Positions 8,411-49,306 of a DNA stretch of 49,306 nucleotides are shown here, in pieces. A program made the translations under genes and the position numbers. A model generated the notes under the pieces. That model searched no databases. It was given only the letters and a program-made list of their open reading frames with translations, and was not told where the DNA came from. Within the stretch, counting starts at the first letter, position 1; each line of letters starts with the position of its first letter. Where the stretch lies: the NCBI RefSeq assembly GCF_014863405.1, contig NZ_JACZZA010000020.1:1-49306 (forward strand), written 5' to 3'. This stretch comes from Dyella acidiphila (GTDB lineage Bacteria; Pseudomonadota; Gammaproteobacteria; Xanthomonadales; Rhodanobacteraceae).

Positions 8411-8490
8411 TGCATCTGCCTGGTCCAACCAGGCATGCAGCAACACCGCACCGTTATTCCAGCCTTCGCCGGAACAACGCCGCAGTAGTG

Positions 8491-8576
8491 CGTAGGCTGG
8501 GTTAGCGCAGCGTAACCCAACAATCCCTCATCGCAGCCACATCACTGGATTACCCCGGACCAAGTCCGGAGTAACC
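8491..8576. repeat. REP-like palindromic repeat, copy 1 (partial)
   Basis: CGTAGGCTGGGTTA followed by GCGCAGCG and TAACCCAAC forms a short inverted repeat (8491-8521). It is followed at 8547-8576 by a second module with the stem CCGGAC/GTCCGG. Both modules recur in the copies at 21011 and 36175. It lies between a DUF4124 gene and the 3' end of algC, where convergent transcripts meet. Apart from this repeat I see nothing in 8411-8610. Confidence 0.75.
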
Positions 8577-8610
8577 AAGCTACGCGATGCCTGGAAGCGT
8601 GATCCCCACG

Positions 8611-21010: not shown

Positions 21011-21094
21011 CGTAGGTTGGGTTAGCGCAGCGTAACCCAACGATGTCGCTACGAAGAAAGATCGTTGGGTTACGCGGCGCCAACCCAACCTACG
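21011..21094. repeat. REP-like palindrome, copy 2 (full 84-bp inverted repeat)
   Basis: The left arm begins CGTAGGTTGGGTTAGCGCAG and the right arm ends with its near-complement, CCAACCCAACCTACG. Together they form an imperfect stem of about 34 bp around a loop (about 21045-21060). It lies between the 3-hydroxybutyrate dehydrogenase gene and the acetoacetate decarboxylase start, inside what is otherwise an operon. Nearly the same arms flank copy 3 at 36175. Confidence 0.85.
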
Positions 21095-33677: not shown

Positions 33678-36179
33678 ATGCCGAAGGCAACACACCCCAT
33701 CGAAGGCGAACTGCCGCTGCCGCAAGCGGCCGCGGATCTGCTTGCCCATGTGGTGCATAGCGTCCCGGCACTCATTTCCTATATCGATCGCGACGAGCGC
33801 TTTGTGTTTGCCAACGAAGCGCACCGCCGCTGGTTCGACATCGAACCGCGCACGATGGTGGGCAAGCTGGTCAGCGCAGTGCTGGATCCGGAAAGCTATC
33901 TGCGCGCACGCGCCGCCTTGCTGCAATCTCTGAGCGGGCAGGATGCCAGTTACGAAGGCGAGATGTTCAGCGCGCCGCGCCGCCGTTATGTGCATGGCAG
34001 CTTCACGCCCGACCTCGACAAGTTCGGCCGCCTGCGCGGCGTACTCACCGTGTTCACCGACATCACCGAACGCCACGCGCTGGAAGAACAGCTGCGCGAG
34101 AGCGAGCAGCGCTTCTCGCAGGCCTTCCATCATGCTGCCGTGGGCATGGCGCTGATCCTGCCCAACGGCCGCTATCAGCAGGTCAACACCGCGCTGTGCG
34201 ACATGCTTGGCTACAGCGAGTCGGAAATGCGCGCCTTCAACTGGCGCGATCTCACCCATCCGGACGACCTGCCGCTCAGCGAAGCCTTGGCCGGCCAGCT
34301 CACCAGCGGCCGACGCGACGCGTTCCAGACCGAGAAGCGCTACATCCACCGCGATGGGCACGTGGTGCACGTGCTGCTCAGCGTGGCGCAGATCCGTTCC
34401 GAATCCGGCAAGACCAACTATGCCGTCAGCCAGGTGCAGGACATCACCAAGCGCAAGCAATACGAAGAAGCGCTGTTCCGCGAACGCCAGCTGGCCGAAG
34501 TCACGCTCAATTCGATCGGCGATGCGGTGATCACCACCGACATCTCGCTCAATGTCACCTCGCTCAATCCCATCGCCGAGGCGATGACCGGCTGGTCCAA
34601 CGCCGATGCCAAGGGCAGCCCGCTCGACGATGTATTCCGCCTGCGCGACATCAACAATCGCCAGCCGCTGGACAACCCGCTGCGCCAGGCGATGCGCCGC
34701 AACGCCATCGTCGATTTCAGCGGCCGCGCGATCCTGCTTCACCGCAACGGCTTCGAAACGCCGATCGAAAATTCCGCGGCGCTGATCCACGACCACGCCG
34801 GCAATGTCACCGGCGGCGTGCTGGTCTGCCACGATATCAGCGAGAACCGCACGCTGGCGCTGAAGATGATCCAGCTGGCGCAGCACGACACGCTGACCGG
34901 GCTGCCCAACCGCAGCCTGCTGTACGCGCGTATCGAACAGGCCGCGGCGATGGCCACCCAGCGGCACCGCCAATGTGCGCTGCTGTATCTGGATCTGGAT
35001 CACTTCCGCCGCATCAACGACACACTCGGCCACGGCGTGGGCGATCAGGTGCTGCAGGCGGTGGCGCAGCAGATCCGCGCCACCTTGCGCGACAGCGAAG
35101 ACATGGCCTTCCGCTACAGCGGCGACGAATTCGTAGTGTTGTTGCCGCGTGTGGACGATGCCGACGAAGCCGCCGGCTACGCCCAGCGCCTGCTGGATGC
35201 CTGCTCGCAGACCCATGTGGCGCATCTGCCGCCGCTGGATATCCGTGCCAGCATCGGCATCAGCCTGTTCCCGCGCGACGCCACCGAACCGGACGCGCTG
35301 GTGCGTACCGCCGACGCTGCCATGTACGAAGTGAAGACGCAGGGCCGCCACGGCTACTGCTTCTACGCACCGGAAATGAGCCAGCGCACCGTTGCCAGCC
35401 AGCGTATCGAAAACGTGCTGCGCCACGCGCTGGCGCACGGCGAGCTGTCGCTGCAATACCAGCCCAAGGTGGATGCTCGGCTTGGCCACATCGTGGGCGC
35501 GGAAGCGCTGCTGCGCCTGCAGGTGGACGGCAAGGATTTGTTCGTGCCCGATCAATTCATCCCGGTGGCCGAGGATACGGGTTTGATCGTATCGATCGGC
35601 ACCTGGGTGCTGCGCGAAGCCTGTCAGCAGGCGCGTCGCTGGCAGCGCGACGGGCGGCCGATTCCGGTTTCCGTCAACGTCTCGCCGCTGCAATTCCAGT
35701 ACGCCGGGTTTTATGAGCGGCTCGACAGCATCATCAACGAAACCGGCCTCGATCCCAACCTGCTCGAACTGGAACTCACCGAACGCACCATGATGAGCGG
35801 CGGCGACGGCACCATCCGCCTATTGCGGCGCATCCGCCAACGCGGCGTGCGCCTGTCGCTGGACGACTTCGGCACCGGCTACAGCAGCCTTTCCTATCTC
35901 AAGCACTTCCCGGTCGATGCCTTGAAGATCGACCGCGCCTTCGTGCGCGACATCACCCAGGATGCGGAAACCGCCGCCATCACCAGCGCGATCATCGCCA
36001 TGGCGCGCAGCCTCAACAAGGACGTGATCGCCGAGGGCGTAGAGACCGAAGTGCAGAGTGCGTTTCTGCGCGAAGCCGGCTGCTCGCAGATGCAGGGCTT
36101 CCTGTTCGGTGCGCCGATGCCGGCGGCTTTGCTGGAAGAGCGGCTGACCTTGCAGGCATCCGCTACCGCGAGTACGTAG
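33678..36179 (+). CDS. PAS-PAS-PAS-GGDEF-EAL cyclic-di-GMP protein
   Basis: An 833-residue cytoplasmic sensor of the c-di-GMP network. Three PAS/PAC modules lie at about 20-140, 145-265 and 275-395; the PAC ends are seen as FTDITERHALEEQL and VQDITKRKQYEEALF. A GGDEF domain at about 400-560 has the site YSGDEF (480-485), where the first Gly is Ser. The EAL domain at about 575-825 has EAL (609-611), DDFGTGYSSLSYLKHFPVD and the loop EGVET. EAL residues look complete, so phosphodiesterase activity is likely, while cyclase activity is doubtful. No membrane segment. The stop codon lies inside REP-like copy 3. Confidence 0.92.
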   Translation: MPKATHPIEGELPLPQAAADLLAHVVHSVPALISYIDRDERFVFANEAHRRWFDIEPRTMVGKLVSAVLDPESYLRARAALLQSLSGQDASYEGEMFSAPRRRYVHGSFTPDLDKFGRLRGVLTVFTDITERHALEEQLRESEQRFSQAFHHAAVGMALILPNGRYQQVNTALCDMLGYSESEMRAFNWRDLTHPDDLPLSEALAGQLTSGRRDAFQTEKRYIHRDGHVVHVLLSVAQIRSESGKTNYAVSQVQDITKRKQYEEALFRERQLAEVTLNSIGDAVITTDISLNVTSLNPIAEAMTGWSNADAKGSPLDDVFRLRDINNRQPLDNPLRQAMRRNAIVDFSGRAILLHRNGFETPIENSAALIHDHAGNVTGGVLVCHDISENRTLALKMIQLAQHDTLTGLPNRSLLYARIEQAAAMATQRHRQCALLYLDLDHFRRINDTLGHGVGDQVLQAVAQQIRATLRDSEDMAFRYSGDEFVVLLPRVDDADEAAGYAQRLLDACSQTHVAHLPPLDIRASIGISLFPRDATEPDALVRTADAAMYEVKTQGRHGYCFYAPEMSQRTVASQRIENVLRHALAHGELSLQYQPKVDARLGHIVGAEALLRLQVDGKDLFVPDQFIPVAEDTGLIVSIGTWVLREACQQARRWQRDGRPIPVSVNVSPLQFQYAGFYERLDSIINETGLDPNLLELELTERTMMSGGDGTIRLLRRIRQRGVRLSLDDFGTGYSSLSYLKHFPVDALKIDRAFVRDITQDAETAAITSAIIAMARSLNKDVIAEGVETEVQSAFLREAGCSQMQGFLFGAPMPAALLEERLTLQASATAST

Positions 36180-36270
36180 GTTGGGTTGCTCCGGACTTGA
36201 TCCGGGGGTAACCCAACGATGTCGCTACGAAGATGGATCGTTGGGTTACGCTGCGCTAACCCAACCTACC
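36175..36270. repeat. REP-like palindrome, copy 3
   Basis: The arm CGTAGGTTGGGTT at 36175-36187 and its complement AACCCAACCTAC at 36258-36269 enclose a module CCGGACTTGATCCGG and a TCGTTGGGTTACGC element shared with copy 2. It fills the whole gap between the GGDEF-EAL gene (its TAG lies in the repeat) and the convergent GNAT gene, and is a likely bidirectional terminator. Confidence 0.85.
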
Positions 36271-36271
36271 G

Positions 36272-36724
36272 TCACTTCAGCATCTGCTCGTACATCAGGT
36301 AGTGGCATTGCTCCATGCCAAGGTCCCGATACGTGCTCTGCGCACGCAGGTTTTCTGTCTCTACATACAAGCGCAAACCCACCGCACCCGCTTCACCAGC
36401 GCGCCGTGCGACATCGGCATACAGCGCACGAAACACGCCGCCTCGCCGCGCCTGCGGTGCCACATACACGCTCTGGATCCACCAGAAATCGCCGTTGCGC
36501 CAATCGCTCCACTCATACGTCACCAACAGGCAACCCACCGGCTCGCCATCGCGCTCGGCCACCAGGTAGAAACCACGCCTTGGCTCATCGAATACCGCCG
36601 CCACACCGCGCGCCAGCACCTCATGCTCGAGACGCTTGTGCTCCGTCTCCCACGCCATCGCCGCATTCCATTCGGCCACTGCAGCGGCGTCGCTGCGTTC
36701 GGCCAGACGTATCGTTATCGTCAC
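36272..36724 (-). CDS. GNAT-family N-acetyltransferase
   Basis: A 150-residue acyl-CoA N-acetyltransferase. It starts MTITIRLAERSDAAAVAEW, with the beta4-strand WWIQSVYVAPQARRGGVFRALY that holds the acetyl-CoA pyrophosphate loop (QARRGG), and ends with the motif ENLRAQSTYRDLGMEQ. Substrate unknown. Same strand as ntrC, 18 bp downstream of its stop, so it may be co-transcribed as the last gene of an ntrBC unit. Confidence 0.88.
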   Translation of the reverse strand: MTITIRLAERSDAAAVAEWNAAMAWETEHKRLEHEVLARGVAAVFDEPRRGFYLVAERDGEPVGCLLVTYEWSDWRNGDFWWIQSVYVAPQARRGGVFRALYADVARRAGEAGAVGLRLYVETENLRAQSTYRDLGMEQCHYLMYEQMLK

Positions 36725-39170: not shown

Positions 39171-39220
39171 TGCACCATCATGGGCAATGCGCCGGGTTGG
39201 TGCAAATGGGGAACGGTGCA
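39171..39220 (-). promoter_or_regulatory. Candidate NtrC-binding half-sites at the ntrB start
   Basis: TGCACCA (39171-39177) and its inverted form TGGTGCA (39198-39204) lie directly upstream of ntrB, with a third half-site CGGTGCA at 39214-39220. The NtrC consensus is GCACCA, a short spacer, TGGTGC. The first pair is spaced wider than the classical site (20 bp rather than about 4-5), while the second and third are direct repeats 16 bp apart. Autoregulation is plausible but not shown. Confidence 0.4.
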
Positions 39221-39251
39221 AAGCGACAGTCGGAACGCTACCTTGGACAGA

Positions 39252-39319
39252 TGTCGGCGATGCTTAACCTTGTCGCAGTCGCACTAAACCCTGTCGCAGT
39301 GACTTAACCTTGTCGCGGA
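39252..39319 (+). repeat. Proposed transposon left end with three transposase-site-like repeats
   Basis: The terminus TGT (39252) is followed by CTTAACCTTGTCGCAGT (39263-39279), CTAAACCCTGTCGCAGT (39284-39300) and CTTAACCTTGTCGCGGA (39303-39319), at steps of 21 and 19 bp. Multiple binding repeats of about 20 bp inside a TGT end are typical of Tn7/Tn5053-type elements. The 5 bp before TGT is ACAGA and could be a target duplication. The remainder to 39427 holds nothing I recognise. Confidence 0.6.
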
Positions 39320-39427
39320 GCGCACGTTGCCACATCCCGGGCGCAAGACGCGCACTCCGGTTTTGCCGATCGCATGTTTGGAGGTCCTTCCTTGTTAGGC
39401 TAACGATCACGGCACGGTCGCTAGCGG

Positions 39428-39453
39428 TATCCGCTCTGGGTCGGAAGCTGACG
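39428..39453 (-). repeat. Cassette hairpin repeat, copy 1
   Basis: On the minus strand the loop CGACCC is flanked by the arms GTCAGCTTC and AGAGCGGAT. It directly follows the TAA of the 141-residue gene. Part of a family of eight copies aligned without gaps over 26 nt. Confidence 0.8.
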
Positions 39454-39879
39454 TTAATTCTTTGCTTCCGCCCAGTACATGGCCTGGGCGAGGCTTTCAT
39501 CAGCGTAGCGTTCTGACTGGGCGGCAAGCTCATTGAGACGCACCTTGACCGCCTCTTTGCCAAACGTCCGCACGCACGGGGCTATGAAGACCCGATTGGC
39601 ACTTGGGTTGGATTCTTCCAACGCCGCTGCCAGGAGCGGGTCAAGCAAGATGCTGGGGACGGGATTCACCCGCTCCAGCGTCTTTGCGACGAACCATTTC
39701 TTCCTGGGTTCATTGAGCGCAGCAACGAACCAAGCAAGATCAGGCACTCTGTTCTTAGGGAAGCCGGACGCTGCCTCACCGAGTAAGTCATCAATTGCCG
39801 AAAGCTCAGGCTGACTTCTTGGGCCTGCCTGAATGAGCTGCGCATAGCGATCCGCCAAGCGGTCCCAGTCGATGGCCAT
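39454..39879 (-). CDS. Cargo protein of unknown function (141 aa)
   Basis: A soluble helical protein, MAIDWDRLADRYAQLIQ onward, with repeated helices spaced like HEAT repeats (for example PDLAWFVAALNEPRKKWFV then PSILLDPLLAAAL). Such folds occur among immunity proteins, but I recognise no family. A Shine-Dalgarno (AAGGA or GGAG) lies just upstream. It is the last cargo gene before the proposed left end. Lower GC and unlike core codon use suggest transfer. Confidence 0.6.
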   Translation of the reverse strand: MAIDWDRLADRYAQLIQAGPRSQPELSAIDDLLGEAASGFPKNRVPDLAWFVAALNEPRKKWFVAKTLERVNPVPSILLDPLLAAALEESNPSANRVFIAPCVRTFGKEAVKVRLNELAAQSERYADESLAQAMYWAEAKN

Positions 39880-39913
39880 TCCTTCACTCCAGACAAGACC
39901 CTAACCCATAAAG

Positions 39914-39939
39914 TGTCCGCATTGGGTTGAAAGCGAACA
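39914..39939 (-). repeat. Cassette hairpin repeat, copy 2
   Basis: Minus strand: left arm TGTTCGCTTT, loop CAACCC, right arm AATGCGGACA; stem closed by G-U as well as Watson-Crick pairs. It starts 13 bp after the TAG of the 75-residue gene. Confidence 0.8.
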
Positions 39940-39952
39940 TTTGCCACGAACG

Positions 39953-40180
39953 CTAGATCGAAGGTCGATAACCCGCCTTCCAAAGATAATCAAGGAAAGG
40001 CCCTTCTGAGCCATCAGTCAACTGGACCGCGACGTCGTAGCCACCTTTGAAGTGTTTAGCTACTCTGGTTATTTCTTCGACGCCGGGGGCAGAAGCGATA
40101 GTAGAACAGAGTTCATTTACTTCGGCCTGTGAATATGTCTCTGGCTTTTCCGCGACAAGGAGTCTGGCATAGAAGTTCAT
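39953..40180 (-). CDS. Small cargo protein of unknown function (75 aa)
   Basis: From ATG 40180 (MNFYARLLVAEKPETYSQ) with GGAG 10 nt upstream; a longer frame to 40225 runs through a hairpin repeat and is less likely. Short alpha/beta sequence with no membrane segment. No family recognised. Same strand as its neighbours, with a hairpin repeat on each side. Confidence 0.5.
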   Translation of the reverse strand: MNFYARLLVAEKPETYSQAEVNELCSTIASAPGVEEITRVAKHFKGGYDVAVQLTDGSEGPFLDYLWKAGYRPSI

Positions 40181-40226
40181 CACGCAGTTTCTCCAAGCAA
40201 AATTGCGAATACTTGCCGTCAACAAA

Positions 40227-40252
40227 GTTCTGCTTCGGGTCGAAAGCTGACG
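40227..40252 (-). repeat. Cassette hairpin repeat, copy 3
   Basis: Minus strand: GTCAGCTTT, loop CGACCC, GAAGCAGAAC. It lies 26 bp after the TAA of the frameshifted SUKH/DUF1851-like gene. Confidence 0.8.
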
Positions 40253-40278
40253 CGGGTTGGCGACACTATAAGCTGTCT

Positions 40279-40769
40279 TTAGGAGCGCCGCGCACGCTCG
40301 ATGCTCATGGCTTGTTCGACCGACTGCCCAACAAGATTTGTATAGACACTCAGCAAGCCCTTCACATAAGTATCTTCACTCCCGCTTCCACCCAACCGCG
40401 GCCATGGCTGCGCTATAAAGCATTCACCGTAAATGAGGGGGGACAGGCGCGCGCTGAGGGAAAGGAACAAGGTGCGATGAAGCACTTGGTCTAGCATTTC
40501 ATCCGAGGTAAGGAAGTCATTGAAGAACCAATCGAAACTTTTGTCGATAAACGTCGATGAGCTTCGTTGAATATCCAAAAAATAGATTGCCCCGCGCGTT
40601 TCAGACCAGAAAAATAGGTCCCCAGACTGCTCGCAACCACAGCAACAGCATCCTGACCGAGGAGCCATCGCCAAGAACTGAGAGCTTGTCTCGAAAGCGA
40701 CTGATCCAGAACGGATAGCAATCCACCCCGATTGGTGCCGTCAGCACGGAATATGTCGTCAAATCTCAT
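40279..40769 (-). pseudogene. Frameshifted SUKH/DUF1851-like (immunity-type) gene
   Basis: Two overlapping minus-strand frames make one protein. The upstream frame (40769-40491) begins MRFDDIFRADGTNRGG with a good GGAG ribosome site. The downstream frame (40674-40279) carries the family-like GDLFFWSETRGAIYFLD and FIDKSFDWFFNDFL. Adding one base in the four-base C run at 40620-40623 (GGGG on the coding strand) joins them smoothly as AVVASSLGDLFFWSE, giving 163 residues. This is either a real one-base deletion or a sequencing error. The C-terminal half resembles SMI1/KNR4 or T6SS immunity (Tdi1, DUF1851) proteins. It follows the 166-residue gene with a 46-bp gap and no hairpin between, so the pair may act together. 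Confidence 0.65.
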
Positions 40770-40815
40770 GTACGTGCTCCATGCGGTATTTCAATTGGCT
40801 GGCTTTGAAGCCGCG

Positions 40816-41316
40816 CTACGCGCCTGGACCACCACAAGCAAACGTACCCGCTATGGGGCGCCCACTAATATCATTGAACCCGGTCTCGTAGCTCAACCGG
40901 AAGATGTCGCTGGATGTGCCGAGCGAAGCCATTAGTTGACGCCTATAACTCTCGTTATCACTCCACAGTGCGGGGTGTCGACTGAAGGAAAATGTTTCGC
41001 CCCCGTGGAATACGGTCAAAACGTATGCATCATCGTTCATGACAAACCCTTTCAATTGCTGCCCGTCCAACGTTCGAATCGTGGCGCGGATAAAAATGCG
41101 CATGCGCGGCGGGAATGGGTTCGATTCAAGCATCGTGTAAACGCAATGCTCGTTTCCGGGAGAATTTTGTGAAAAAAGTTCGAGCACGTGTTCGCGATCT
41201 AGGCCCCACCGTTCGATCTCTTCAATCTCGTCCCAGTCATAGTGCTCAGACCAAACCGGAAAGCGATCGAATGCCTCTTCGTTGAGCCTACTTTCCGGTA
41301 GAACTAGAAAATCCAT
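40816..41316 (-). CDS. Cargo protein, unknown (166 aa, immunity-like)
   Basis: Starts MDFLVLPESRLNEEAFDRF at 41316 behind GGGAGAG. Acidic soluble protein with the striking stretch FPVWSEHYDWDEIEEIERWG, then a beta-rich part RMRIFIRATIRTLDGQQLKGFVMNDDAYVL and TVFHGGETFSFSRHP. I recall similar conserved hypothetical proteins next to toxin loci but cannot name a family. It lies 46 bp upstream of the frameshifted DUF1851-like gene and follows a hairpin repeat. Confidence 0.6.
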   Translation of the reverse strand: MDFLVLPESRLNEEAFDRFPVWSEHYDWDEIEEIERWGLDREHVLELFSQNSPGNEHCVYTMLESNPFPPRMRIFIRATIRTLDGQQLKGFVMNDDAYVLTVFHGGETFSFSRHPALWSDNESYRRQLMASLGTSSDIFRLSYETGFNDISGRPIAGTFACGGPGA

Positions 41317-41356
41317 CACGACTCTCCCTAAAACGCCAGTTTTCTTGCTCGCCAAC

Positions 41357-41382
41357 TGTCTGCTATGGATGGAAGCGGACGT
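41357..41382 (-). repeat. Cassette hairpin repeat, copy 4
   Basis: Minus strand: CGTCCGCTTC, loop CATCCA, TAGCAGACA. Diverged loop (CATCCA instead of CGACCC). It follows the TAG at 41401-41403 of the 203-residue gene by 18 bp. Confidence 0.7.
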
Positions 41383-41400
41383 TTTCGCTGTCGACCCTTG

Positions 41401-42012
41401 CTACCAATGCTTGGTCGGACAGAGACCGGCCGCAACGGCTTGAGCCTCTGACATTGGTGCAAGCTCTTCCAACGTTGGAAGCGCAAAAATCCTCACTTCC
41501 GTACCCTTGTACTTCCAGAAGCCCAATCGATCACCGTTGGTGATCCAGTAGTCGGAAATCGGCTTGTATTGCGCTGCGCCTTCCATGGTGCACTCGGCTA
41601 TATAGGTGTCGTGCTTCTCTCGATAAATCAGCACAGACGTGGAGCCAAACCAGTCTAAGAACCGCACGTCGCAACCGAAATAGGGGTTGTAGCTGACGAT
41701 CTCTGAGGCGACTTCGCCTACGGGATCTCCGCGCAACCGAAATTCAAATGAGACGTCCACATACTCGCTCAGTTCTTTGGCGGCGCATGCGACGTAGGCA
41801 ATTGCGCCGTCAGGACCAAAGGAAGCAGCAATGATTTCCTGTTCGTACCCATCAGCGTCAACGAACTTGACTGGTCTTGCGAGAATTCTGGCGGCTTCTG
41901 CGATGCGGGACTCGTCAGGCTCCGCTCCGGAGCTATTAAAACGAAGCGGGATTCCAGCCATAGCTGGATTAGGGCGTCCGGCATCAAAAAGTGGATCATT
42001 TGAGTGGGACAT
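41401..42012 (-). CDS. Cargo protein, unknown (203 aa)
   Basis: MSHSNDPLFDAGRPNPAM onward, ATG at 42012 with CAGGAA upstream. Soluble alpha/beta protein; a central segment FGCDVRFLDWFGSTSVLIYREKHD precedes DYWITNGDRLGFWKYKGTEVRIF, which looks like a beta-sandwich or SUKH-like half. No catalytic motif. Family not recognised. Flanked on each side by a hairpin repeat. Confidence 0.6.
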   Translation of the reverse strand: MSHSNDPLFDAGRPNPAMAGIPLRFNSSGAEPDESRIAEAARILARPVKFVDADGYEQEIIAASFGPDGAIAYVACAAKELSEYVDVSFEFRLRGDPVGEVASEIVSYNPYFGCDVRFLDWFGSTSVLIYREKHDTYIAECTMEGAAQYKPISDYWITNGDRLGFWKYKGTEVRIFALPTLEELAPMSEAQAVAAGLCPTKHW

Positions 42013-42070
42013 GAAGATTTCCTGACATCTGATTACCTATCGTGACGGACGCACTGATTGTGCGCCGAGT

Positions 42071-42096
42071 CGGCCGCAATGAGTCAAAAGCCGACA
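42071..42096 (-). repeat. Cassette hairpin repeat, copy 5
   Basis: Minus strand: TGTCGGCTTT, loop TGACTC, ATTGCGGCCG; the outer part also pairs GTCGGC with GCCGAC. It starts about 50 bp after the TGA of the DUF4253-like gene, the longest gap in the set. Confidence 0.75.
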
Positions 42097-42146
42097 TCCC
42101 AAATCTAAGAATTCCTTGAATAATTTAGACCGTTGAGCGACAGCAA

Positions 42147-42932
42147 TCACCTACCAAAATTTTCGGTGTAGCAAAGGAACAAAGTCCGGGTAGCTAGCAA
42201 TACTTTTTCCAACTCTTTCCATTGGCCTTGTGACTTGTTGTCAGTGCAACCGTAAAGTCCAGCCAGATCATCCATCAAATGTTCCGCCTCGGCCATCTCC
42301 AACGAGCTGGGGCGCACGAAACCGAGCCACGATGCACCAATTCCAAAGAACCGATAGCCGTATTGCTCTTGCATGTGCTGGATTACCACATGATTCTGAA
42401 ATACATTCCAATCGCTACTAAAATAGCCATTGGGTATTCCGGCAATCAATAGATCGTCACGCGGCACGGGGAGTCGCTGAACGTATACCACGCGATCCAG
42501 CATGCTCGACGGATGGCGATTAGTTGCTATTAGTGTCTGAATATCTTCGTCAGTCGCGATCAGTTCGCCAACCACGCCCTCCCAAGTCAGAACCAAATCT
42601 GGGTTTTGCAGCTGGCTCATTACATGAGAAAGGCGCCTGAGCTCGAATTCCCGGACCGAGCTAGGATTATCGAAATCAGTCTTATCGGCGCTTATGCAAA
42701 GGGCCGTCTGCTCCAATGCGTGATTACTGGTGTAGCAACATTGCCCCAAGTCATCAAGCGTACAAAGAAAGCGATATTCTGGTTGGTCATCATTCAATTC
42801 ACCCAGTAAAGCGAGTAACGCTTGCATCGACTCAAGATCTTTCAAGCGAAGATGACTGAATGTGTCGACAGGCCTGAATCCAGTCTTTTCGCGGTAGTCG
42901 ATAACAGTGCGCTGCATATTCCGGACGTCCAT
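42147..42932 (-). CDS. DUF4253-like cargo protein (261 aa)
   Basis: MDVRNMQRTVIDYREKTGF onward. The last 85 residues match the layout of DUF4253: QNHVVIQHMQEQYGYRFFGIGASWLGFVRP, then a helix EMAEAEHLMDDLAGLYG, then the acidic/helical end LFLCYTENFG. DUF4253 proteins are frequent near toxin genes and are thought to be immunity-like, but no function is proven. The N-terminal 170 residues contain two CC/CxxxC elements without a clear motif. No toxin is encoded next to it. Confidence 0.6.
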   Translation of the reverse strand: MDVRNMQRTVIDYREKTGFRPVDTFSHLRLKDLESMQALLALLGELNDDQPEYRFLCTLDDLGQCCYTSNHALEQTALCISADKTDFDNPSSVREFELRRLSHVMSQLQNPDLVLTWEGVVGELIATDEDIQTLIATNRHPSSMLDRVVYVQRLPVPRDDLLIAGIPNGYFSSDWNVFQNHVVIQHMQEQYGYRFFGIGASWLGFVRPSSLEMAEAEHLMDDLAGLYGCTDNKSQGQWKELEKVLLATRTLFLCYTENFGR

Positions 42933-42992
42933 CGCTTGTCAATTGGATTTTAGAACGAGTGATAACATTACTACCGGTGACTACCTCAAATA

Positions 42993-43018
42993 TGTCTGCT
43001 CTGGGTCGAAAGCGATCA
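42993..43018 (-). repeat. Cassette hairpin repeat, copy 6
   Basis: Minus strand: TGATCGCTTT, loop CGACCC, AGAGCAGACA. It overlaps the TGA stop codon of the 86-residue gene. Confidence 0.8.
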
Positions 43019-43276
43019 TCCGTGTTCCGCGAAGTAGGCTTCAAAAGTAAGCCGTGCTTCGGCTTCGTCGATTACCTTGGCAGAACGCTCACCAAACTCC
43101 CACCAAGCCCCGCAACGGCCGCAATGATGCAAGTAAGCATGTGCTTGTAAGTTACTTGCAACGAGCCTGGGAGGAAGGCTGATCCCACCAGACCGCGCCA
43201 CAGTCTCGGGCGACCATTCGCTAGATAGGACGCCCTCTCTGCAGGCTTCACACCCTTGTTCCGACCAGTTTGTCAA
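43016..43276 (-). CDS. Small zinc-ribbon-like cargo protein (86 aa)
   Basis: Starts with TTG at 43276, read MTNWSEQGCEACREG, behind a strong GGGGGAG ribosome site that decides the start. Two CxxC pairs, CEAC (near residue 9) and CGRC (near 52), would bind one zinc in a treble-clef or ribbon. The tail ARLTFEAYFAEHG is helical. Function unknown. Its stop codon lies in hairpin copy 6, and the hairpin before it is copy 7. Confidence 0.55.
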   Translation of the reverse strand: MTNWSEQGCEACREGVLSSEWSPETVARSGGISLPPRLVASNLQAHAYLHHCGRCGAWWEFGERSAKVIDEAEARLTFEAYFAEHG

Positions 43277-43302
43277 AACACTCCCCCTGTTAACCCCGGC
43301 AT

Positions 43303-43328
43303 CGTCCTCTCCGGGTCGGAAGCCGATA
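43303..43328 (-). repeat. Cassette hairpin repeat, copy 7
   Basis: Minus strand: TATCGGCTTC, loop CGACCC, GGAGAGGACG. It begins 2 bp after the TAA of the 97-residue membrane protein gene. Confidence 0.8.
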
Positions 43329-43330
43329 GT

Positions 43331-43624
43331 TTAGCCCGCTCCACCCAAAGCCCTTAGCCCAGGAAATGCCGCAATAGCCAAACAAAGGCCAAGGAAGATA
43401 GCCGCCTTCGTGGCAAGCTCGGCCCACGGAAATGGGAGCTTGCCGTCCGGGTTGCTCCAACCACCGGCAGCATCGTCATCAGCCGTCACAACGTGGCCCA
43501 ACAATGCCCAGCCAGCAAAGCCAGTCAACGTAAAGATGTAAGGAACGGCAAACATCAACGAGAGAACAACTGCCGTTGATGCAACCACGGCCAATAAGAC
43601 GATGTAGCGACGCCTCTCGGTCAC
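43331..43624 (-). CDS. Small cargo membrane protein (97 aa)
   Basis: GTG start at 43624 (MTERRRYIVLLAVVAST) with AGAGG upstream. Two strong membrane segments at about 7-40 and 73-92, separated by an acidic loop VTADDDAAGGWSNPDG. Orientation cannot be fixed. No family recognised. First cargo gene after tniQ in the direction of transcription. Confidence 0.5.
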   Translation of the reverse strand: MTERRRYIVLLAVVASTAVVLSLMFAVPYIFTLTGFAGWALLGHVVTADDDAAGGWSNPDGKLPFPWAELATKAAIFLGLCLAIAAFPGLRALGGAG

Positions 43625-43646
43625 TCACTTTACCTCTGACTAGTTA

Positions 43647-43673
43647 GGTCCGCTCCGTGGCCGAGAACAGACG
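43647..43673 (-). repeat. Cassette hairpin repeat, copy 8 (degenerate)
   Basis: Minus strand: CGTCTGTTCT, loop CGGCCA, CGGAGCGGACC. It lies between the 3' end of tniQ (43697) and the start of the membrane-protein gene, and marks the edge of the array on the transposition-gene side. Alignment to the others is weaker. Confidence 0.5.
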
Positions 43674-43696
43674 TGATTGCAGAACCCCGTTCTTTG

Positions 43697-44659
43697 TCAG
43701 ACTGAGCCGAGACTGCTTTGCTTATAGACATATTCCCTCCACTCAATTTTCGACTGAGAAAGACGGTACATCAATGCGCGGCGACACGCGATTGATCTAA
43801 CCTTTCCCGTCAGACTAAACCAAGTAGGTCGTGCGGGTCTGACAGGCCCTTTCTTGAAGGTAAAGGACATCACCCGCTGATCCTCGAATGTGATCGCATC
43901 TGACTCATCCACCCTTAAGCGTCCATTTTTGGTCGCGTCTTTTGCTAGCTCAACGGCCAGATTCATGACTGCGTCTTCAATGCTGTAAGAACGCCAATTC
44001 ATCGCGTTATATTTAGCTGCTCCCACACCTGCATTGAATAAAGATGATTCGAAGTATTTAACGCATGCCCATGCTTCTCGCGATATCGGACGTTTAGGCC
44101 GAACATCATATGCGTATGCGCGTGCCAACTTTAGATCCTGCGCAAATTGTGCAACCGCAGAAATTTTTATCCCTTCTCCCATCAACCACTCATGTGGAAG
44201 CTTGCGCGTACCATCCGGCAGCACGTGCGACCATTTGAAGAGCGGGCATTGATGCACCTGACAGTACGTTAGAAAAATGCGAGCCCAATCCAATCGGAAG
44301 TAGGGCGTATGGGCGCTGGTAGCGTCCTCGAAGAAACATATAGGGCAGTACGCGTCGCGATCTTTTGGCTTAAGAAGTGCTTCTCGGCGATCTCCGCAGT
44401 GCATCTCTAGAGCTCCGCGACTGACACCAGTTTTCTCAGCATATATATCGAGAAACATCCATCGACCACTCACATCAAGATCGCCCAAGGCTACCTGCCC
44501 AATAATACCGGGTGAGATTTCGCGAATCAGTTGCGATCGATTTATTCCCCACAACAGCGCTTGTCGATCAACCAAGGAAGAAATTGATTCACCCGGCATA
44601 AGAATTTGCGGGGCAAGCTTAGGCCATTGCATATCTTTGGGAAGGTATAACTCACGCAT
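43697..44659 (-). CDS. tniQ: TniQ/TnsD-family target-selection protein
   Basis: A 320-residue protein. Helical N-terminus LPKDMQWPKLAP leads into the TniQ core. The zinc knuckle is YCPICFFEDATSAHTPYF with a partner YCQVHQCPL (Cys105, Cys108, Cys133, His136), and LDWARIFLTYCQVH is the family-typical W-to-C/H block. The length is of the short-TniQ class rather than long TnsD. In Tn7-like elements this protein links target DNA to the TnsC/TniB ring. Its start overlaps the tniB stop by 8 bp. No CRISPR genes are present to suggest RNA-guided targeting. Confidence 0.88.
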   Translation of the reverse strand: MRELYLPKDMQWPKLAPQILMPGESISSLVDRQALLWGINRSQLIREISPGIIGQVALGDLDVSGRWMFLDIYAEKTGVSRGALEMHCGDRREALLKPKDRDAYCPICFFEDATSAHTPYFRLDWARIFLTYCQVHQCPLFKWSHVLPDGTRKLPHEWLMGEGIKISAVAQFAQDLKLARAYAYDVRPKRPISREAWACVKYFESSLFNAGVGAAKYNAMNWRSYSIEDAVMNLAVELAKDATKNGRLRVDESDAITFEDQRVMSFTFKKGPVRPARPTWFSLTGKVRSIACRRALMYRLSQSKIEWREYVYKQSSLGSV

Positions 44660-45592
44660 ACTTCAACTTCTTTTGTAGCTCGACCGAAGGTGCAAACTCC
44701 GCCTCTTCTAATGTCTTCAGCGTAAGGCTCTCTTCACCACTGAGGATGGCATGAGCGGCGGCCAAAGCAATGCGCTCCATAATGGCCCGAAGGCCACCAC
44801 CTGAACACTTGATTAGAAAAGTCAATGCCTCGGCGTTTCGTAAAGACGATGGGCGGCGCAACGGCAATATGGCCTCGATATTGCCGACGAAATCCGCAAA
44901 TGCCTGATCAACTTTCCACTCTGGCAACTTGAACGGCCGCAAGCGTTGTGCCAAGTGCTTATCGGTTCGAAATGCGTTGGACGAATCAAGCGCGCCCAAA
45001 CAAATTAGCGGAAGACGCGCCCTATTTGTCAGGAATTTAATTCCCGCCAATACTCGGTTTAGCTCTCGATCAGTGCCTTTTGACAAATCTTGTATTTCAT
45101 CGACTACCAAGGCCTTAATGCCAAGCGATTTAATTGCTCGAAGCACGGCCATTTCGCGATCAGACGTGGTCGATGGATGTGCCGCAGGACCGCCTAACGA
45201 ATCAAGCACGCGCCCATAGAATTCCCGCATCGTGCGCGACCCTTCGGCCGACACTATGACGACCTTATCCTCATACGTGCGCGCGAGCTCTTCACCGAAC
45301 GTGCTCTTCCCAGAACCCGGATTCCCGGTCAGCAACATCCCTCGTTCGTTGTAACCTTTGGCGACGTGAGAATCCAATGCGCGTATGCCATTGCATTGGA
45401 GTACGAAGGATGCGCGATTACGACGCCTTTCTTGATCAAATCGATGCGCATAGCATCGGGCGCACCGGCATCAGATTGATAGGCTTCAGCGAGATGCGCA
45501 TAGATGGTGACGGGATGTTCTAGCGTTGAAGTAGCGGTTGAATCATTCATAAAGGTTTTAGACGCTGTCTGTATAGACATCCCGCAAGTCAT
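44652..45592 (-). pseudogene. tniB: TniB/TnsC AAA+ ATPase, apparently frameshifted (-1)
   Basis: The core frame (45377-44652) carries the Walker A GNPGSGKST, the Walker B ALVVDEIQDL and a sensor region, followed by a helical tail. The expected N-terminus lies in a different frame (start about 45592 or 45580 to 45329), with the family-like RIDLIKKGVVIAHPSYSNAM and HWILTSPK. Joining them needs a -1 shift at the A AAG sequence (plus strand 45357-45360), giving TSPK followed by GYNERGMLLTGNPGSGKST. It may be a mutation, or programmed -1 shifting at that A AAG. Without it only the 241-residue product starting at a TTG could be made. Upstream frame begins just after the tniA stop. Confidence 0.75.
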
Positions 45593-45593
45593 G

Positions 45594-47423
45594 CTACATG
45601 TCCCCTCGATGCACGCCAAAAGTCGGGACAGGCAAACTGAAATCGATAAATTCGCCCTCGATGGTGACAGGGACTTCGCATGATTCAATGGCGGGAGGGA
45701 TGCTAATGCCGCGGTCTTTATGAAGTTTCTTGATGGCCGACTGTTTTCGGGCGCCTTTTGTAGCCTGGATTGCGTTCGTGATCAGTTGTTGCCGTGTCTC
45801 CAACCCACCATCAAGCACTTCCAGCAATCCACTTGATTCGTATTCGACATGACCCAATTTTCGGAGCCAGCGCATTTCGGCAAGAGATATCTGACGCGCA
45901 TCCTTGCATGTGTCGTGCGCTACAAGCACGTTACCTGCCGGCCCGATGATAAAAACCTTGGAGATATCACTAGGGTCGTAAGAAACCTCGCGTGGAATCT
46001 TGTCTCCAACCCATTCGTTCAAGCCTTCTGCCCAAAATTCGCGATGGAACATCTGAATACCAGTGCGCCGAATGAGCCGCATCTCATACGGGTAGAAAGT
46101 GGTGGGTAACATCCAGTGCTCCCATCCCGCCGGGAGTGCCTCTGAGACAGAAACTTCTTTTTCTAGCGCTTTCCATTTCTGAAGTGGAGCCATCTCCAAG
46201 GTGCGGTGTACCTTCGCGTGATATACGCTGACGATTTCGTTAACCAAAAATGTCACGAATTCTCGAAGGGTTAGCGCTGCATTGCTCTCTGAATCGTAGT
46301 CCGCACGCTTAACTACGTTGCTTTGTGTGGCGCCAGGGAGGAGCCGGCACTTCCCCATGAACGTACCTATCAGCCTCTCAATGATTCCACCATAGTGCGG
46401 GGACCCGACGGGACGGTACTGAATGTCGATACCTAGTTGGCTGCAGCCGCGCTGCAAGGCCTCACTGTGAAAATCTCGCCCATTGTCCATATGGATCGTT
46501 TCCATCACGCCGAAAACGGGCCACTGCCCCTGAAGACCCAACGACGCAAGGAAAGCCTCTTTGGGAAGCAACGCATTCACCAGACACATCGCCACCGATA
46601 TCGCACTGGGCGCCTCGAAGCTTACATATACGCCGACCACCATCCTTGAAGCCACATCGATCGCTAGTGTGACCCATGGTCGACCGATGGCCACAGTCCT
46701 ATCGTCTTCCGAAACCAGAATTGCGTCAGCTAGTGTGTGATCAATCTGTACTGTTTCTAGAGCCCGGGAGGCATCGATATGACCCACCATGGCATCGTGT
46801 TTATATTTTGCTTTTTTGCTCCCTTCCCGCAACACTGTCACGCGACGAGTATCGAGTGCTTCGACCCGCTTGCGAATAGCACTTGCGCACGGCTCGCTTA
46901 GCCCTCTTTGACGACAAGTAGATTGAATCTGCTCGATTACATCCGAAAGGTTAGGCTTGTTTTTGACGAGCCAACACTCATTGAGTTGATGAGCAATGAT
47001 TTCCTCCACTGCTCGATCGAGCAACCGGATGCCTGCAGGGCGACCACTCTTACCAGGCTGCAGCGCCGACACGGCATTGAATTGCCTCAATCGCTTTATG
47101 GCACGCTCTAGCGTTCTTTTTGAAACCCCTAATTCGAGCGCGTGCAGTTCGTAGCGCGCCTTACGCTCTTGAGTTGTGGTGGCGACCATAATGTTTCGCG
47201 CGGCATTCGCAAGTCGCTGTAAGCCGTTCCATTCCAGCATGTCTATAGAGTTCACACGCCCTGCTAGTGCAGGTGCAATGGAGACTTCTTGGGCATTTGC
47301 CCGGCACACTACCGCAGGGTCATGCAAAGCGGTCAGCATCATCACTCCCTGGAATTCGGGATCCGTGACGCGCATGCGTTGACCACGGTACAGCACTTCA
47401 CTACCCACGTCATAAGTGGTCAT
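45594..47423 (-). CDS. tniA: TniA/TnsB DDE transposase
   Basis: A 609-residue transposase of the Mu/TnsB (rve) group. The N-terminal part has HTH-like DNA-binding segments (ERKARYELHALELGVSKRTLERAI). The catalytic core shows D228 in QIDHTLAD, D313 in HMDNGRDFHS and E349 in GIIERLIGTF, 35 residues after D313, the DDE pattern with 35 residues between D and E. The C-terminal Mu-type domain follows. It cuts the 3' strands in cut-and-paste partnership with TnsA. ATG at 47423, 2 bp after the tnsA stop; the tniB N-terminal frame begins after its own stop. Confidence 0.93.
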   Translation of the reverse strand: MTTYDVGSEVLYRGQRMRVTDPEFQGVMMLTALHDPAVVCRANAQEVSIAPALAGRVNSIDMLEWNGLQRLANAARNIMVATTTQERKARYELHALELGVSKRTLERAIKRLRQFNAVSALQPGKSGRPAGIRLLDRAVEEIIAHQLNECWLVKNKPNLSDVIEQIQSTCRQRGLSEPCASAIRKRVEALDTRRVTVLREGSKKAKYKHDAMVGHIDASRALETVQIDHTLADAILVSEDDRTVAIGRPWVTLAIDVASRMVVGVYVSFEAPSAISVAMCLVNALLPKEAFLASLGLQGQWPVFGVMETIHMDNGRDFHSEALQRGCSQLGIDIQYRPVGSPHYGGIIERLIGTFMGKCRLLPGATQSNVVKRADYDSESNAALTLREFVTFLVNEIVSVYHAKVHRTLEMAPLQKWKALEKEVSVSEALPAGWEHWMLPTTFYPYEMRLIRRTGIQMFHREFWAEGLNEWVGDKIPREVSYDPSDISKVFIIGPAGNVLVAHDTCKDARQISLAEMRWLRKLGHVEYESSGLLEVLDGGLETRQQLITNAIQATKGARKQSAIKKLHKDRGISIPPAIESCEVPVTIEGEFIDFSLPVPTFGVHRGDM

Positions 47424-47425
47424 GT

Positions 47426-47935
47426 TTAGAGCTCCCCAGACACAGGCAGCCGAATTAGCGGCATCCCCAACGCGATGCGGGCGACACGCGTATGTTCGTC
47501 GCGCAAATCAGCTTCGATCCAAGCGCACTCGGGTTTTACTTCGACGATCGATAGGCGCTCAAACCCAAGCTTTCTCCATCTCTCCGGCACCGCCTCGAAG
47601 ATCACCAAGATATCTGGGGTGTAGCGCCGCGTTGTTCCATTCCATGACCAATTGATGGTGACCGGCTGAGTAGCAATCGCCATACAGGCAGGGTCGGCCA
47701 CGAGCATCTTTACGACAGAGCGTTCCAGTGCACTTTCTACGCGCACGAGCTTTTCGCCCCGAAATGCGCAGACGTAACCCCCATGATGACGGCCGCGCGA
47801 CAGCGGAATACGCCGAAAACCCCAGCGCAAAGCGATGCCCTCGGATCCGGGCAGTTTCTGGATGAAATCGTTGAGCTCGGCGCGCATGGATGGCCTACGG
47901 CAAGCCACGCGCAGGGAAGGAACCGGTTTATTCAT
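47426..47935 (-). CDS. tnsA: TnsA-like endonuclease
   Basis: A 169-residue protein starting MNKPVPSLRVACRRPS at 47935 with GGAG upstream. It carries the TnsA catalytic triad pattern: E in VRVESALERSV (E67 or E71), D108 in YTPDILVIF and E132/K134 in IVEVKPE. TnsA makes the 5'-strand cuts at transposon ends. The C-terminal TnsC-contact domain of Tn7 TnsA (273 residues) is absent, so only the catalytic part remains, as in short TnsA forms. First gene of the tnsA-tniA-tniB-tniQ operon. Confidence 0.88.
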   Translation of the reverse strand: MNKPVPSLRVACRRPSMRAELNDFIQKLPGSEGIALRWGFRRIPLSRGRHHGGYVCAFRGEKLVRVESALERSVVKMLVADPACMAIATQPVTINWSWNGTTRRYTPDILVIFEAVPERWRKLGFERLSIVEVKPECAWIEADLRDEHTRVARIALGMPLIRLPVSGEL

Positions 47936-48075
47936 GTTTCTCGCTCCATCGGAGTAAATGGGCACGTTGAGTGCCACTACTGAATGGAGCTCCAGGCAAA
48001 TGCCGCCCGTCCCTTGAGTCGCGGGAGAGATCGAGCTAGCATGGCGCGTCGGCGCAAACAAATCGACGCTTCACC

Positions 48076-48758: not shown

Positions 48759-49172
48759 ATGACGAATGATCGATTGACCACGAAAAATGTGCGAACAAGC
48801 GCCTCTCACCCGTTACGCATAGCGACGCTTCCTGTTGGTGAAAATGGGGGCGCCGTCGGCGTAACATTCGCGCCCGGCAAACGGCAGGCCAGCGCCATGA
48901 CCGGTATTTGGGAACGCGATCTCGATGAAGATCTGAACGCCATTCGTCGGTGGGGTGCCTCCGACCTCATCACACTGATTGAGCCTCATGAGTTCATAGA
49001 GTTGCATATCGAAGATCTTCCGGAACGCACGGTATTGCATGGACTGCGGTGGCATGGATTACCGATTACCGATGGTGCCGCGCCTGACAATCGATTTCTC
49101 GCTCCGTGGAAAGCGCTGCTTCCAACGCTCTTGCAACGACTGGATCAAGGTAAACGCGTCGTCGTACACTGA
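48759..49172 (+). pseudogene. Dual-specificity/CDKN3-like phosphatase, truncated by an IS
   Basis: Starts MTNDRLTTKNVRTSASH at 48759 behind AGGAG. Residues up to the end match a bacterial protein-tyrosine phosphatase family: APGKRQ, IWERDLDEDLNAIRRWGASDLITLIE, HEFIEL, LRWHGLPITDGAAP and finally GKRVVVH, where family members continue with HCxxGxxR. The stop TGA comes directly after that His, exactly where the IS3-type terminus begins. So the catalytic Cys and the rest of the domain are lost from this copy. About 137 residues remain. Confidence 0.75.
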
Positions 49173-49306
49173 GCTGACCTGAAATTTCTGGTCCAGATCC
49201 AAAGTTCATAGACTTATGACGAGGAGACTGGACGATGCCCAAGAAACGCTTTAGTTCCGAAGAGATCATCCACAAGCTGCGCGAGGCCGAGGTGCTTTCC
49301 TCGCAG
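49170..49306 (+). mobile_element. IS3-family insertion sequence, left end and start only (runs off the window)
   Basis: The left end is placed at TGAGCTGACC (49170), with leading TG as in IS3-family ends. About 64 bp later begins an orfA. The element interrupts the phosphatase-like gene. The right end and orfB are outside the window, so the family assignment rests on the orfA start only. Confidence 0.65.
49235..49306 (+). CDS. IS3-family transposase OrfA (partial, runs off the right edge)
   Basis: The first 24 codons read MPKKRFSSEEIIHKLREAEV and continue to the edge. This resembles the HTH start of OrfA of the IS407 group of IS3-family elements. ATG at 49235 follows GAGGAGA with good spacing. 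The remaining protein is not in the window. Confidence 0.75.
   Translation, partial: MPKKRFSSEEIIHKLREAEVLSSQ

Follow-up and report, generated by a model that had tools for sequence, protein, structure and literature searches.

The stretch analysed here, referred to below as the window, comprises 49,306 nucleotides of Dyella acidiphila (contig NZ_JACZZA010000020.1 of assembly GCF_014863405.1) and carries an array of short gene units. From tniQ of a Tn7-like element to a group of TTAACCTTGTCGC-like repeats, small genes lie on the minus strand and every unit is followed by one copy of a palindrome, always in the same orientation. Eight copies were recognized, six of them clear and two decayed, each on the minus strand behind a cargo gene or tniQ, in agreement with what a sequence-only reading of the window had claimed; the six were located with a covariance model and the two by eye. 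The window lacks the candidate recombinase gene described below, and its array is called an orphan.

All of the array features are on the minus strand and are given in order from tniQ; for the six clear sites the E value of the covariance model is added, each site being itself a copy used for that model. The first site (43646..43674) is degenerate and was read by eye; it is backed by its right half, which is common to a homologous unit of Dyella japonica DSM 16301 (L068). A cassette gene of 97 amino acids (43331..43624) follows, the unit of which is 78% identical to the D. japonica unit, which has sites on both sides. The next site (43302..43330, E = 8.8e-7) precedes a gene of 86 amino acids (43016..43276), and the site at 42992..43020 (E = 5e-8) precedes one of 261 amino acids (42147..42932). 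Behind a partly degenerate site (42070..42098, E = 1.8e-5) lies a gene of 203 amino acids (41401..42012), after which a degenerate site (41355..41382) was read by eye below the model threshold. The unit that follows holds two genes, an open reading frame (ORF) of 179 codons (40816..41355, the start of which may be nearer 41316) and a gene with a T6SS Tdi1-type immunity domain (40279..40674; PF08906, T6SS_Tdi1_C) that is 65% identical to a unit gene in a recombinase-linked array (L378). The site at 40226..40254 (E = 2e-7) is followed by an ORF of 90 codons (39953..40225) and that at 39913..39941 (E = 3.3e-8) by a gene of 141 amino acids without a Pfam match (39454..39879). The C-terminal 50 residues of the latter are 72% identical to a unit at L041, where a site lies 5 nt past the match. 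The last site, on the ntrB side, reads AACGTCAGCTTC CGACCC AGAGCGGATAC (39427..39455, E = 9.3e-8). Other arrays thus hold relatives of one complete window unit, of a single gene from a second unit and of the end portion of a third.

The covariance model was built from 23 copies from the window's genome, including the window's own six, which match it at E <= 1.8e-5; these matches are not independent, because the same six helped to build the model. A plain scan with a consensus derived from the window copies themselves gave five of them scores of 20–24 out of 24, the maximum in 20 simulated windows being 19; the copy at 42071 scored 18, a value expected about 0.65 times per window. A weight matrix prepared from the 150 best model matches recovered five window copies and missed the one at 42070. 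The Rfam scan of the window gave no matches.

The search of other genomes that the sequence-only reading had called for found copies beyond the window. At E 0.01 the model matched 43 of 61 genomes, namely the window's own and those of 60 relatives; at E 1e-4 it matched 98 of the 233 family genomes, and in a phylum sample it matched 30 of 299, the window's genome counted; the per-genome site counts are lower bounds, as stricter filters were used and 122, 24 and 32 candidates were scored per genome in the 61-, 299- and 233-genome sets, respectively. Elsewhere in the window's genome nine sites lie on contig C28 and groups of four and two on contig C5. The weight matrix was applied to 67 loci of the window's genome and its relatives, which were picked for their matches and partly overlap (L014 and L016, with no match and one weak match, were left out), and yielded 382 distinct site copies; none were found when 30 of these loci, 580,839 bases in all, were base-shuffled. 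At least two sites were present in 57 loci, of which 54 had a uniform orientation and the other three one odd copy each. Scanning the genomes of named species for the pattern returned at least 120 stretches; the 80 listed, each up to 8 kb long, mostly contained a single exact match. Genera among the listed matches were Dyella, Lysobacter, Rhodanobacter, Luteibacter, Pseudoxanthomonas, Sphingomonas, Caulobacter, Phenylobacterium, Brevundimonas, Massilia, Telluria and Methylophaga. Long arrays were demonstrated only in the window's family; beyond it the sites seen were scattered, apart from a small mixed cluster in genome G085.

The consensus of the core site is ATGTCCGCTTT-CGACCC-AAAGCGGACAT, 28 bp in an 11-6-11 layout in which the arms form an inverted repeat and the centre is asymmetric. 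The centre is kept at 96–99% per position in 150 aligned copies, mostly from relatives, and exceeds several arm positions, so that the earlier description of a loop better kept than its arms held. Core sites of tyrosine recombinases (Xer/dif, lox and others) are built in this way, with 11 bp inverted arms around a centre that has to be identical in the two partners, and this explains both the well kept 'loop' and the one-way orientation of the sites. Sites with the centre CGGCCA in place of CGACCC were seen at L286 (8670 and 11131), L379 (6820), L380 (2119), L381 (17754) and L288 (5917). They occur at loci of recombinases from other clades, and spacer types may mark separate compatibility groups. 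Agreement of enzyme clade and spacer was seen in one clade, at three loci of three.

The sequence-only reading had also allowed for a site that folds as a single strand, and such a site might be used in the manner of attC by an integron-type enzyme. The arrays do resemble integron arrays and the consensus folds well as a single strand (-11.6 kcal/mol, z = -7.4), but the test for covariation among site copies gave nothing above shuffles and seven of the eight window copies fold within 2 standard deviations of shuffles, the eighth having z = -2.2. Single-strand folding is not needed, because of this lack of covariation and the poor folding of the window copies. The column frequencies of the 150 copies fit neither of the attC motifs RYYYAAC and GTTRRRY within the 29 positions. 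The centre is among the best kept parts and is where homology changes (see below), and relatives of the candidate enzyme score far below the cut-off for integron integrases. An attC-like use of the site is considered very improbable, and this part of the sequence-only reading was not supported.

Units were defined as the DNA between neighbouring sites; those outside 150–2500 bp or close to a locus end were left out. There were 287 units with a median length of 540 bp. The longest ORF was in the sense of the sites in 267 units and opposite in 16, four having none of at least 50 codons; in the median it took up 86% of the unit, started 38 nt after the previous site and stopped 23 nt before the next. 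Gain and loss were assessed by means of units common to arrays and species, with one genome per species. In the window's genome, L009 (9602-10214) and L010 (9017-9630) hold the same unit, 95% identical over 614 bp, between different neighbours, and the homology ends inside the sites at both ends. An all-against-all comparison of the 287 units, in which a match had to cover at least half of the shorter partner, gave 42 homologous pairs. Their flanks were at least 60% alike in none of the 42 upstream and in one of the 42 downstream.

The position at which homology ends was determined for pairs of at least 86% identity in which it reaches the site (12 upstream and 11 downstream site pairs). At the upstream site the left half was as different as in random pairs (0.278 mismatches per position compared with 0.289) and the right half was shared (0.114 compared with 0.313); at the downstream site the left half was shared (0.144) and the right half random (0.314). 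This contrast was reached by none of 20,000 random draws. In the best kept pairs homology changes at the CGACCC centre, and the right half-site, the gene and the next left half-site move together, which fits site-specific recombination at an 11-6-11 core site and not a terminator. The link between the arrays and cassette behaviour is strong, and the earlier proposal that the repeats delimit the units of a cassette array lacking canonical attC was borne out by the shared units and the change of homology at the centre.

The same data bear on the simpler view that the copies are ordinary terminators or gene-end repeats of the repetitive extragenic palindromic (REP) or miniature inverted-repeat transposable element (MITE) kind, with turnover by homologous recombination between them. 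The copies are palindromic, lie a median of 23 nt behind stop codons and are followed in one of 27 flank rows by a run of five T residues. However, no consistent T run was found behind the site in the 27 rows, the window copies fold weakly, and a single orientation with a constant asymmetric centre is not expected of such repeats. Exchanged units change sharply at the centre between unrelated flanks, whereas homologous recombination would spread the boundaries. We regard this view as slightly less probable still than that of a folded site.

A candidate enzyme was found outside the window, a tyrosine recombinase of 207 amino acids. In the distant genome G085 a tyrosine recombinase of 213 amino acids ends 22 nt before a CGGCCA-centred site, beyond which lie four sites in mixed orientation. 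Two long ORFs at this locus (L286, 3697-8647; 836 and 491 codons) diverge from the small recombinase and the sites, and at least one of the two has a tyrosine recombinase match. Relatives of the G085 recombinase are present, some as fragments, in 25 of the 233 genomes of the window's family, and three of them (L376, L377 and L378) sit among arrays of the window type, between outward-pointing sites. At L376 the gene (9683-10306, minus strand) has 17 sites in line running away from its start, one outward site immediately to its rear and a second 8 kb farther along; at L378, 14 and 13 sites diverge on the two sides of the gene, and at L377 three and three. In genome G196, of another family, the recombinase gene stands between two outward CGACCC sites. 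The claim that there is no integrase thus holds for the window but not for the system, which has a candidate among the arrays of three relatives.

The recombinase unit is itself bounded by sites at both ends at L377 and L378 (1.6 kb); at L376 the upstream boundary is the same and homology stops 22–23 nt from the rear site. By inspection, the conserved unit of six related loci (L382–L387) stops upstream at GGGTCG and downstream at CGGCCA, past which the DNA varies. The right half-site was matched at 10 or more of 11 positions within 110 nt of the stop codon at 32 of 51 recombinase loci, compared with 10–11% in shuffled or other windows, and at all 11 positions at 13 of 51, compared with 0.6–1.4% in the controls (loci without both protein ends were left out; L282 is the same place as L328, and L359 is nearly identical to L360).

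The catalytic residues R-K-HxxR-H-Y are present: in the alignment K86, H155, R158, H181 and Y190 are invariant in 26 of 26 sequences and R58 is found in 25. Matches of small recombinases to PF00589 reached 72 and 77 bits. The catalytic-domain match starts at residue 42 (profile position 21) and so leaves no room for a core-binding domain; to judge from the sequence, the enzyme appears to consist of the catalytic domain only. The three array-linked enzymes are 88–93% alike, while the 19 other recombinases compared are 58–68% identical to that of L376 and 60–65% to that of L377. Array linkage does fit the enzyme clade, three being a small number. A search for relatives gave at least 8,000 (all 8,000 scored candidates passed E 1e-20), and the names among the 120 listed, where given, are forms of integrase or tyrosine-type recombinase. 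The small recombinase occurs on 388 of 72,556 plasmids (E 1e-30) and in three of 50,697 phages (E 1e-20).

In six array-rich relatives no PF00589 match was found inside the arrays examined, the nearest noticed being a match of 319 amino acids about 7 kb from an array in G034. Protein clustering around 27 site loci gave no shared recombinase; the widest clusters covered four genomes and comprised regulators, hydrolases and the like. At L299 (G019:C1:3255867-3256439) a recombinase relative has an internal stop and at L300 (G023) there is a fragment, in relatives with no site match or one; these remnants suggest loss. The link between enzyme and site is circumstantial.

We read the window as an orphan cassette array built by conservative site-specific recombination, the enzyme most likely being the 207-residue tyrosine recombinase, and assign this a probability of about 0.76. 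The reading is carried by the exchange of units, the change of homology at the spacer, the orientation of the sites and the co-location of enzyme and array in three genomes. The 11 bp inverted arms would be the binding sites of the recombinase and the asymmetric 6 bp centre the spacer in which strands are exchanged; this has to be the same in both partners and would therefore stay constant and fix the orientation. Recombination within the spacer would join a right half-site, a gene and the next left half-site into an exchangeable unit, presumably with a circular cassette as intermediate, and the 207-residue enzyme would act on the sites. Cassette genes are probably expressed from outside the cassette, since the longest ORF starts a median of 38 nt past the preceding site and little room is left for a promoter. 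Given the partly decayed sites in the window and the absence of the enzyme from most array-rich genomes, the array of the window may have ceased to be active.

Several points weigh against this reading. When pairs down to 70% identity were included the half-site contrast was about halved and was reached by 21 of 20,000 draws; the 42 pairs are not independent, because some units occur in several pairs, and the random draws ignore this recurrence. Comparison of 27 loci gave 66 DNA matches of 150 bp or more, of which only five end within sites at all four ends, the rest being partial, decayed or outside arrays; many homologous unit pairs are old and partial. The half-site consensus was fixed after many of the 51 recombinase loci had been inspected. 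The structure predicted with AlphaFold is of low confidence (pLDDT 56) and was not used for any conclusion. The enzyme does not predict arrays, being found in four of the 36 family genomes with ten or more sites and in 21 of the 197 others; one of the four, G423, has a fragment only, and 32 of the 36, the window's genome and 31 more, are without it. In the phylum sample (n = 299, assumed to be the same sample for both searches) 30 genomes have the site, 56 the enzyme and nine both, 5.6 being expected. At 17 of 20 recombinase loci there is no array of the window site and there are at most three scattered sites.

The absence of the small enzyme from those 32 genomes would also follow if the cassettes were real but moved by the host XerC/XerD, as are the pdif modules of Acinetobacter, with the small recombinase as a passenger. 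The 11-6-11 geometry is that of dif, and the strongest recombinase matches in the six array-rich relatives are XerC/XerD-like by size and score. On the other hand, the dif pattern occurs once in the genome, as CGCATAATGTATATTATGTCAA, and shares no obvious arm with the cassette site, which is nearly palindromic whereas dif is not; the arrays are patchy, and the small enzyme is flanked by cassette sites. Mobilization by XerC/XerD is thus thought unlikely, although it is the alternative to which we give most weight, and recombination by the small enzyme is retained as the preferred reading.

The Tn7-like element on which the window array lies is encoded on the minus strand by tniQ (43697..44659, PF06527), a TniB/TnsC ATPase (44652..45377, PF05621), a TnsB/TniA transposase (45594..47423, PF09299, with rve slightly below its cut-off) and a TnsA-like endonuclease (47426..48061, PF08722, 25.2 bits compared with a cut-off of 26.5). 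Three TTAACCTTGTCGC repeats on the plus strand (39264..39316), two exact and one with two mismatches, probably form one end of the element; a second end was not found and this probable end is the only one recognized. With tniQ on one side and the probable end of the transposon on the other, the array could in principle be mere cargo gathered by transposon-specific processes. However, the ORF clusters around the 27 site loci, the window among them, contained no tns/tni family in three or more genomes (no other search for Tn7-like genes around arrays was made), and the arrays of L376 and L378 run outward from the small recombinase. We attach next to no credence to such an origin.

A hot spot of insertion lies immediately before the start of ntrB (window 39205-39430; L377 and L400–L413). 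When 15 loci of one related genus were compared with the window, agreement mostly stopped about 20–40 bp before the start codon. G396 and G397 have ntrB genes that are 91% alike and entirely different islands. At this locus only L377 and L407 have a site at the same place; homology begins 22–34 nt behind it and the DNA before it is unrelated. The comparison revealed a turnover hot spot but no clean gain of a single cassette between close species. At the other end of the window, the same 137–138 bp recur at or near the ends of three contigs (window 49169-49306, L012 18490-18627 and L013 15710-15847) and resemble the beginning of a transposase gene; the contig of the window probably breaks off at a copy of an insertion sequence. 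A second palindromic repeat of 60–100 bp, unrelated to the cassette site, occurs in the window at 8487-8584, 21011-21094 and 36175-36276 and also at L011, and looks REP-like.

The cargo comprises 231 proteins of at least 90 amino acids. A Pfam scan of 100 of these gave matches in 66 families, few of them more than once: SMI1_KNR4 four times, TPR three times, and SUKH_6, DUF4279, aspartyl protease and Hydrolase_4 twice each; the SMI1_KNR4 and SUKH_6 matches are possibly the same proteins. The eight cargo proteins of the window gave one match at E 0.01, the T6SS_Tdi1_C domain at 40279-40674, and the DUF4253 that had been proposed among them was not found. Immunity-like genes do occur but make up only a minority of the cargo, and the label of immunity-gene capture proved too narrow.

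Among the closest known counterparts is the integron. As there, a tyrosine recombinase gene stands beside a single-gene cassette array of one orientation (L376, L378 and, in small form, L377, not the window), the first site adjoins the recombinase start, the array runs away from it and cassettes are exchanged singly; the window array lies on a Tn7-like element, as class 2 integrons do on Tn7. In contrast, the enzyme has 207 amino acids and its relatives at L276, L282 and L272 score 21.8–23.3 bits where the integron integrase cut-off is 265, their best NCBIfam models being XerA/XerC, also below cut-off. The site is a 28 bp palindrome with the change of homology in its 6 bp centre and without GTTRRRY/RYYYAAC, and the enzyme gene has sites to either side, and arrays may run both ways. 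The Dyella-type system works like an integron, yet judged by IntI and attC it would not be counted as one. Recombinase-free arrays, common here as noted above, recall CALINs, the attC clusters without an integrase, but the sites are not attC. In pdif (Xer/dif) modules 11-6-11 core sites likewise flank movable genes; here, however, the arms are unrelated to the genome's dif, the sites have one orientation and some arrays have a separate recombinase.

Mobile elements inserted site-specifically into rulB of Pseudomonas have been called integron-like (PMC4542609) and share this likeness with the present arrays. According to Smyshlyaev (2021; PMC8138268), simple tyrosine recombinases usually have a core-binding and a catalytic domain; their class is Xer-like, as here, but the present enzyme has no room for the former domain. 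The parts consulted of PMC8138268 and PMC3414803 do not describe the present enzyme together with cassettes. A search of the open-access literature, motif letters included, gave no description among the matches listed; this is weak evidence, subscription papers and preprints being mostly outside it.

Integrons are the best known natural stockpile of single genes in ordered arrays. Our opinion inclines, by a narrow margin, to the existence in Pseudomonadota of a second, separately evolved cassette capture system in which a very large family of small catalytic-domain-only tyrosine recombinases uses simple duplex 11-6-11 sites with a few alternative spacers (CGACCC and CGGCCA). Integron finders would be expected to miss such arrays, because neither the enzyme nor the site fits their models. 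If the reading is true, it would make available a recombinase of very small size together with its short site, and a parallel system would allow a direct test of which integron features (the folded attC and the IntI insertion) array building needs. For Dyella and its kin it would mean an overlooked route of cassette-borne gene flow, perhaps also followed in Lysobacter, Sphingomonas, Caulobacter, Massilia and other site-bearing genera.

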